A DNA stretch of 32,518 nucleotides from Burkholderiales bacterium. Lineage in GTDB: Bacteria; Pseudomonadota; Gammaproteobacteria; Burkholderiales; Casimicrobiaceae. The position numbers and the translations under genes were made by a program. The stretch lies in NCBI GenBank assembly GCA_025352105.1, contig JANXUB010000005.1, positions 1 to 32,518 on the forward strand, in the 5' to 3' direction. Position 1 is the stretch's first letter; each line of letters starts with the position of its first letter. Below, piece after piece: positions 4,430 through 27,355 of the stretch. The notes under the pieces are model-generated. The model had not been told where the DNA came from. It ran no database searches and saw nothing but the letters and a program-made list of their open reading frames with translations.

Positions 4430-4472
4430 ACGGGCGTGGGCCCCAACCTTCGCCGGAGTAGCAATTAATTCA
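4430..4472. repeat. Solo/degenerate REP-like sequence (gggcgtgggccccaaccttcgccggagtagca)
   Basis: Matches the right arm of the REPIN-like element at 11983-12064 (gggcgtgggccccggcctccgccggggtggca). Confidence 0.7.
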
Positions 4473-4497: not shown

Positions 4498-4614
4498 CAG
4501 CTTTCTAACGCAAAGCTTGATTGCGCAGGGGATAGGCGGGGTATTTTTGCAAAGTCGATAAGCGCGATTTCATGCACCTATCCCCAATAAAAAAGGCCTG
4601 ACAGCAAAAAGCTG
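4498..4614. repeat. Copy A of a ~117-bp near-symmetric palindromic intergenic element (possible structured RNA)
   Basis: CAGCTTT...GGGGATAGG...AAAGTCGAT...CCTATCCCC...CAGCAAAAAGCTG; same motif spacing as copies B and C. Confidence 0.7.
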
Positions 4615-4626
4615 TAGGCCTTTTTT
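4588..4626. terminator. Bidirectional rho-independent terminator
   Basis: aaaaaggcctgacagcaaaaagctgtaggcctttttt hairpin flanked by A and T tracts, between convergent genes. Confidence 0.9.
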
Positions 4627-4673
4627 AATCGGCAGAGCGCCCTTGTCGCGGCTCTGCCGGGTAACGCCTGATC

Positions 4674-5186
4674 CTAGTAGTAGCGCGTTAACTGCGCCCA
4701 CGGTGCAAGCGCTGCCAAGCCATCGTCATTGACTGCGCCTTTGGGCGCGCTTGCTTTTTTTGACGGCGGTACTTCGGTGACAAACAAGTCGAAGCGACCC
4801 TGCGCCGCGAGGATATCGTTCATTACGCGTGGATCGCGGCAGGCGGTGGCCCACAGTTTGTTGTCAGAGCGGGTTTGTCGCGCCTCGTTGGCGTACGTTG
4901 CGAACCAGCTTTGCGTGGCACGGGTGCCTCGCACAATCGCGCGGGCCAGCAGGCCAAACGTGGTGAGCGCCACAACGGTCAAGATCGCCCATTCGAAGGC
5001 GAAACCGGTTTCAACGGCGTTCAGCGCGCGTTCGGCTGCGGTGACGACGGCCATGATGGTGACGCCGAGTACGTAGGTCGGCAAACGCTTGGCCGAGAAA
5101 ATATCAGAAAAGACGCTTTTTGCGGCAGATACGCCGTCGGTCAAGCGATCCAGGCCGTCGTGGGAGGTGTGGAAGTGAGTAGCCAT
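4674..5186 (-). CDS. Hypothetical membrane protein
   Basis: 170-aa ORF with two likely TM segments (YVLGVTIMAVVTAAERAL; FEWAILTVVALTTFGLLARAIV); no recognisable family; good terminator downstream. Confidence 0.7.
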   Translation of the reverse strand: MATHFHTSHDGLDRLTDGVSAAKSVFSDIFSAKRLPTYVLGVTIMAVVTAAERALNAVETGFAFEWAILTVVALTTFGLLARAIVRGTRATQSWFATYANEARQTRSDNKLWATACRDPRVMNDILAAQGRFDLFVTEVPPSKKASAPKGAVNDDGLAALAPWAQLTRYY

Positions 5187-8316: not shown

Positions 8317-8742
8317 GGCAAAAGATGCTAATGAAACTAAATTGCGTTTTAGCAGAAAACGAGCGTTAAAGCACATTTGTTGCATTAGCGTTAAAGTGTC
8401 ATCTGATAACAACTTTTGCATGAAATAACCTGTGCATATGGGATAAACGACGAAATATCCATTTATCGATAACTCATCATTACCGCATTAAGCCACGACG
8501 AAATAAGGCATCTAGCGAAAAGCTGTGTCGCAACAGAAACGTCAAAAAGGTTTCTCGTTGCGATTAAAACGGGCGAGGGTTGCGAGGTCGCAACATCCGC
8601 TGGCACGCGGGCTGCAACATGGTGCGTAGTTCACCGAAACAGCGCGAATCCATGCACAATTCGGGAATATGTTTGGCAAACGCGCCGTCGTGCAGCGAAC
8701 CGGCGCGCCAACACCAGACCCACACAGCAACAAGGAGGCCCC

Positions 8743-11982: not shown

Positions 11983-12064
11983 TACCGGCGGAGGCCGGTA
12001 TCCACGCCCTCATCCCAATCAACCCTTTGCTGCGGGCGTGGGCCCCGGCCTCCGCCGGGGTGGC
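11983..12064. repeat. REPIN-like pair of inverted REP sequences
   Basis: Left arm accggcggaggccggtatccacgccc, right arm gggcgtgggccccggcctccgccgggg, ~24-nt spacer. Confidence 0.85.
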
Positions 12065-16919: not shown

Positions 16920-17035
16920 CAGCTTTTCGCTAGAAGCGCCGCTGCTTTGGGGCTAACGCCAATAATCGTTTAAAGTCGATTATTGATGATTCGAGCCTCT
17001 AGCCCCAATGAAACGGTCGATTCAGCGCAAAGCTG
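16920..17035. repeat. Copy B of the ~116-bp near-symmetric palindromic intergenic element (possible structured RNA)
   Basis: CAGCTTTT...TTGGGGCTA...AATAATCG-tttaaagt-CGATTATT...TAGCCCCAA...CAGCGCAAAGCTG; same spacing as copy A. Confidence 0.75.
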
Positions 17036-27239: not shown

Positions 27240-27355
27240 CGGCTTTTCGGTAAATTGACCACTCAACGTGGGGTACAAACGTAAAAGTGCAAAAGTCGAC
27301 TATAACTATATTGCGCCCTTAGCCTATATTCATCAAGGGTTTGGTTAAAAAGCTG
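27240..27355. repeat. Copy C of the ~116-bp intergenic element (more diverged)
   Basis: CGGCTTTTCGGTA...GGGG (offset 31)...AAAGTCGAC...19 nt...TAGCC...29 nt from TAGCC to AAAGCTG; spacing agrees with copy B. Confidence 0.6.

Follow-up and report, generated by a model that had tools for sequence, protein, structure and literature searches.

Four copies of a symmetric element in the window

The window analysed here is the whole of a 32,518-nucleotide stretch of the genome of an uncultured Burkholderiales bacterium (contig JANXUB010000005.1). Upstream of copy A lies nlpD, identified by its LysM and peptidase M23 domains, and downstream a convergent ORF (4674-5186, minus strand) without a Pfam match. 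This is the setting given in the preliminary description, and the blocks CAGCTTT, GGGGATAGG, AAAGTCGAT, CCTATCCCC and CAGCAAAAAGCTG were all located in copy A where that description had put them. Its alignment of copy A with copy B, with about one gap, holds from end to end, as do the spacings it reported between blocks. In total, four copies were found within the window (Table 1), of which that at 27240-27355 is probably the copy C mentioned previously. The orthologous junction of the copy at 8410-8525 also contains an element in two related genomes, G015 and G004 (G and L numbers denote genomes and loci throughout). A weight matrix trained on copies from the genome gave scores of 53 (copy A), 121 (copy B), 92 (27240-27355) and 85 (8410-8525), set against a top score of about -24 in a background of 406 kb of reversed sequence. 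The hairpin that shares the right end box of copy A is an intrinsic terminator (z -5.2).

Table 1. Coordinates of the element copies in the window and of their component blocks
Feature	Position	Remarks
Copy A, whole element	4498..4614	117 nt; one extra base in left arm; axis 4556|4557
Copy A, central block AAAGTCGAT	4551..4559	family centre AAGTCGACTT
Copy A, left side-module core GGGGATA	4528..4534	family form GGGGCTA
Copy A, right side-module core TATCCCCAAT	4579..4588	family form TAGCCCCAATG
Copy A, right end box AAAAGCTG	4607..4614	shared with intrinsic-terminator hairpin, ~4588-4627
Copy B, whole element	16920..17035	116 bp; axis 16977|16978
Copy B, left end box CAGCTTTT	16920..16927	
Copy B, left side-module core GGGGCTA	16949..16955	
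Copy B, central block AAAGTCGAT	16972..16980	
Copy B, right side-module core TAGCCCCAATG	17000..17010	
Copy B, right end box CAAAGCTG	17028..17035	family form AAAAGCTG
Further copy	27240..27355	adjoins 3' end of AMP-binding enzyme gene
Fourth copy	8410..8525	divergent TonB-receptor and porin genes on either side

The element belongs to a large family of dyads

A strict search pattern recovered a third copy at another place in the genome, and a looser one several more. Counted with a 22-base gapped pattern (up to three mismatches), there are at least 319 copies in the 4.5-Mb genome to which the window belongs, 360 in G015 and 49-101 in each of five further congeners; most of the genomes compared are metagenome assemblies ('Burkholderiales bacterium' MAGs where named). 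No match to this pattern was found in backward-read control sequences. The proposal of a new intergenic family is borne out: the family had not been named before, and Rfam returned only chance-level matches at both gathering and permissive thresholds.

The element forms a dyad 116-118 bp long, whose two-fold symmetry about GTC|GAC is evident in 58 ungapped copies. Its centre AAGTCGACTT is flanked by AA/TT steps at a distance of 13 bp, by side modules at approximately 33 bp from the axis and by the end boxes CAGCTTTT and AAAAGCTG. In outline, the 116-bp consensus runs from the left as CAGCTTTT - TGAAA - C - TGCA - GGGGCTA - ATTT - AAGTCGACTT and continues rightward from the centre as AAAT - TAGCCCCAATGCA - G - TTTCA - AAAAGCTG, the bases between blocks being unconserved. 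The consensus holds about 85 bits of information in total, and copies score from 30 to 122, whereas reversed sequence never exceeds approximately -24. The half-length seems to vary, at 58 bp in G000 and G015 and 59 bp in G012. Moreover, AT-rich steps alternate with GC-rich ones with distance from the axis. The period that fits best is 9.35-9.5 bp in G000, G015, G004 and G012 and 10.75 bp in G010 (block permutation, P = 0.004 for G015, 0.002 for G012 and 0.07 for G004). This alternation is similar to patterns that accompany DNA bending or wrapping.

The two arms vary independently

The preliminary description regarded the element as structured, citing two paired differences between copies A and B. 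Both differences are real in these two copies but are not general: across the family, the pairs concerned (42/91 and 8/125) show no coupling, or a negligible one, beyond column composition, and symmetric pairs taken together agree with what shuffling predicts. Covariation was assessed in 138 copies, drawn from the window's own genome and from three further MAGs in the genus (almost entirely G015). Within this set, symmetric pairs of intermediate conservation were Watson-Crick at a frequency of 0.494, against 0.496 with shuffled partners, and variable symmetric pairs at 0.296 against 0.301. The scores of left and right half-sites were uncorrelated (-0.09). The top mutual information was found only between bases 1-3 apart (for example, positions 53-54 are AA or TT and rarely AT or TA), and its top ranking across the 138 copies contained no long-range pair. 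Judged from sequence, such short-range dependence is the behaviour of a double-stranded site read partly via DNA shape, typical of indirect readout.

Base pairing between the arms should leave covariation at symmetric positions; none was found, which argues that the element is not an RNA helix. In favour of a structured RNA, or of an sRNA family whose stem covaries, are the ability of GGGGCTA and TAGCCCC to pair, the good folding of single copies and the real terminator at the end of copy A. However, neither the variable nor the intermediate pairs covary in the 138 copies, and Rfam contains no match. A covariance model built from nine copies with the proposed stem did recover the family (150 scored matches, all E <1e-6), but it did so by sequence and not by covariation, and many of its matches coincide on both strands, which counts against an RNA. 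Such an RNA family is therefore extremely improbable, and was rejected on the independence of the arms and the negative Rfam result.

Positions are conserved between genomes

At conserved gene junctions compared among G000, G015 and G004, the element was present in both genomes in 22 cases and discordant in none, although these 22 are partly non-independent, since some loci recur across comparisons and several were fetched because they held an element. Three further junctions were concordant (two between G012 and G004, one between G010 and G015), and one between G010 and G000 was discordant, the G010 gap there being just 83 bp. Ten out of ten orthologous pairs from G000 and G015 are exactly 116 bp long. 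Their identity is 69-96% at high-information positions and 25-61% at low-information positions, and most of the gaps in which they lie differ in length. This combination is accounted for by purifying selection acting at each site on both geometry and contacts, but not by neutral decay.

These data bear on whether the family is a non-autonomous mobile repeat, either MITE- or ERIC-like or a REPIN moved by a RAYT transposase. Its elements are short, intergenic, high in copy number and palindromic with terminal inverted repeats, as such a repeat would be, and Y1 transposase domains (PF01797) occur in 15 of 17 genomes of the genus, being absent from the element-poor G008 and G016. Against this, no target-site duplication was found at the copies, near-identical copies are lacking (no 21-mer is common to more than two of 138 copies), the arms do not covary and orthologous positions are concordant by 22 to 0. 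Moreover, clear half-sites accompany just two of the six transposase loci examined, a weak link to RAYT/REPIN systems. Mobility of this kind is consequently very unlikely.

At the two loci in question, L210 and L211, a half-site resembling that of the element lies close to a Y1-type transposase gene. Copies in G013 (L190-L195) have in common a stretch, GCATCCATAACGGGCTTGG, that varies unusually little, and at some places just one half-site is good, which suggests a more recent spread in that genome. An exact match to the element was not found in viral contigs.

Elements lie at the ends of transcription units and are evenly spaced

Almost all copies are intergenic: 60 of 61 in G004 (800 kb) and 29 of 29 in G015 (360 kb), both counted in contiguous DNA that was mostly not selected for elements, and 47 of 48 in the window's own genome. 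Junctions between convergent genes are preferred. In G004, 21 of 35 convergent junctions were occupied compared to 39 of 216 others (p=7e-7), with corresponding values of 10/24 and 19/87 in G015 (p=0.048) and 7/10 and 9/51 in G010 (p=0.002). The preference is also present in the window's own genome (p=0.009) and is only a trend in G012 (p=0.15). Many copies lie between tandem genes, where they tend to be closer to the upstream stop than to the downstream start.

The mean distance between elements is 10.5-14 kb, and their spacing is more even than expected if they were placed at random in intergenic regions, with weights by class (coefficient of variation 0.64, 0.64 and 0.55 against null values of 0.90, 0.92 and 0.83, combined P 1.7e-4); this test, like the location counts, rests on gene calls from a home-made hexamer model, and several of the loci were fetched because they bear an element. 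Convergent placement together with even spacing favours a topological or architectural role over promoter regulation.

The nearest rival to an architectural reading is a roadblock terminator, in which a symmetric protein-DNA complex halts RNA polymerase arriving from both sides where genes converge. The strong convergent preference in G004 would follow from this, as would the position of copies in tandem pairs, at a median of 25-62 bp past the stop codon. In G015, convergent ends with an element seldom have an intrinsic terminator (1 of 18, compared to 12 of 24 without, p=0.002). However, this relation is absent in G004 and the trend is reversed in G012, so that a general association with terminators was rejected as contradictory between species. 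Copy A, moreover, overlaps a real intrinsic terminator, and even spacing is not predicted by a roadblock. We consider this explanation unlikely, albeit the strongest of the alternatives.

Distribution in the genus and replacement of the side module

As far as the patterns detect, the family is confined to one genus of Burkholderiales. Outside it, pattern counts were at background both in the other genomes of its taxonomic family and in those sampled from the order. Within the genus, G008 and G016 are nearly element-free and G001, G006 and G009 have few pattern matches; a clean motif was not obtained from G001. Centres resembling TTTCGAAA were found in G010 and G014.

The side module differs between species. 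A GGGCT-type module is found in G000, G015, G004, G003, G005, G011 and G013. In G012, G007 and G002 (L268-L287, L161, L152), its place is taken genome-wide by the palindrome CGACC...GGTCG, with ends and centre unchanged; half-sites of this type number 126, 194 and 120 in the three genomes, compared to seven or fewer in all others. In a tree of GyrA, G012 falls with G004 and G011 (97/94), whereas G007 and G002 fall with G000 and G015 (100/99). This split implies that the side module changed at least twice. An NlpD tree resolved too weakly to count the changes.

DNA gyrase as a candidate binder

In the better-assembled genomes of the genus there is one PF00521 protein (GyrA, no ParC), compared to two in most other families of the order. 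Topoisomerase IV thus appears to have been lost, which would leave gyrase as the one type II topoisomerase. With this in mind, the element could be a strong gyrase site, the enzyme recognising the 116-bp dyad, cutting at its centre with a 4-bp stagger (TCGA) and wrapping both arms, by analogy with E. coli BIME-2 or the strong gyrase site of Mu. The nearest described parallel to the periodicity of the element is indeed the E. coli gyrase motif, which is symmetric, spans about 130 bp, has a GC content periodic at 10.75 bp and is located in intergenic BIME-2 as well as downstream of transcription units (PMC6379681), a placement similar to that of the elements, which lie where transcription units end. 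The motif of E. coli, however, is degenerate, whereas the element is a rigid 85-bit site with base-specific blocks and, in four species, a period of 9.35-9.5 bp; BIME-2 is also made of hairpin-forming REPs, unlike the element. Furthermore, the C-terminal domains of GyrA are 91-97% identical to that of G004 in species whose site motifs differ. A domain so nearly constant is not the source of the species-specific side modules, and direct reading of the sequence by gyrase was rejected on this conservation and the different period. Gyrase itself is a possible binder, though a strong gyrase site of the kind outlined is improbable, slightly more so than a roadblock.

A putative architectural site

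The reading that we favour, tentatively and at a little under an even chance, is that the element is a double-stranded recognition site for a symmetric putative protein assembly with an architectural or topological role at the ends of transcription units. The family, its dyad and fixed length, the independence of the arms, the intergenic and convergent bias, the spacing and the conserved positions are observations, whereas protein binding, bending or wrapping, and the topological role are inferred. A large two-fold symmetric assembly would contact the centre, both side modules and both end boxes in a fixed helical register, and would probably bend or wrap the DNA of the element; wrapping is tentative, since the AT/GC period is shorter in most species (G010, at 10.75 bp, apart) than that of free DNA or the known gyrase wrap. 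Sited immediately after transcription units end, with a preference for convergent pairs, and recurring about every 10-14 kb, the anchored complex could absorb or isolate the supercoiling that accumulates between converging polymerases, and the chromosome would thereby be punctuated into domains.

The broader proposal is somewhat more tentative again. It envisages a genus-specific chromosome-organising system, in which a putative complex on more than 300 vertically inherited sites of 116-118 bp per genome would mark borders of topological domains at the ends of transcription units, its side-module specificity having changed on two or more occasions, with the sites rewritten throughout the genome. 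If the element is an architectural site, its copies would provide a sequence-defined map of domain borders and of junctions of converging transcription, and a direct test of how sequence sets topological domains in bacteria. Replacement of the side module amounts to a natural experiment in which more than 100 half-sites per genome were recoded while centre, ends and geometry persisted, and raises the question of how a system that binds DNA comes to rewrite the sites it binds.

Comparison with known repeats and sites

Literature searches for a matching repeat found nothing nearer than ERIC, REP and BIME. The sites of architectural or segregation proteins, such as matS, parS and KOPS, are dispersed like the element and are about 8-16 bp long, whereas the element is composite, 116-118 bp long and confined to intergenic DNA. 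To our knowledge, no bacterial chromosome site is equally long, specific, numerous and fixed in place.

ERIC/IRU sequences are imperfect palindromes of about 120 bp, intergenic and present in up to hundreds of copies (PMC10969869), and the element is like them in all four respects. The likeness to ERIC suggested by its near-symmetric layout stands as far as the layout goes but does not extend to behaviour, since the element keeps its orthologous positions and a fixed length, has species-specific modules, and lacks covariation and signs of transposition. With REP/REPIN families and their RAYT it shares two inverted half-units, more than 100 copies, an extragenic location and a lineage-specific consensus; the GT(A/G)G head, the stem with complementary changes and the many identical copies that characterise REP (PMC2817692) are all absent from it. 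The window does contain a second, unrelated repeat that is REP-like, a GC-rich hairpin GGGCGTGGGCCCC..CCT.CGCCGG (4432-4456, 11985-12058), which matches three times in the window, where 0 matches are expected, and also occurs in L048 and L160.
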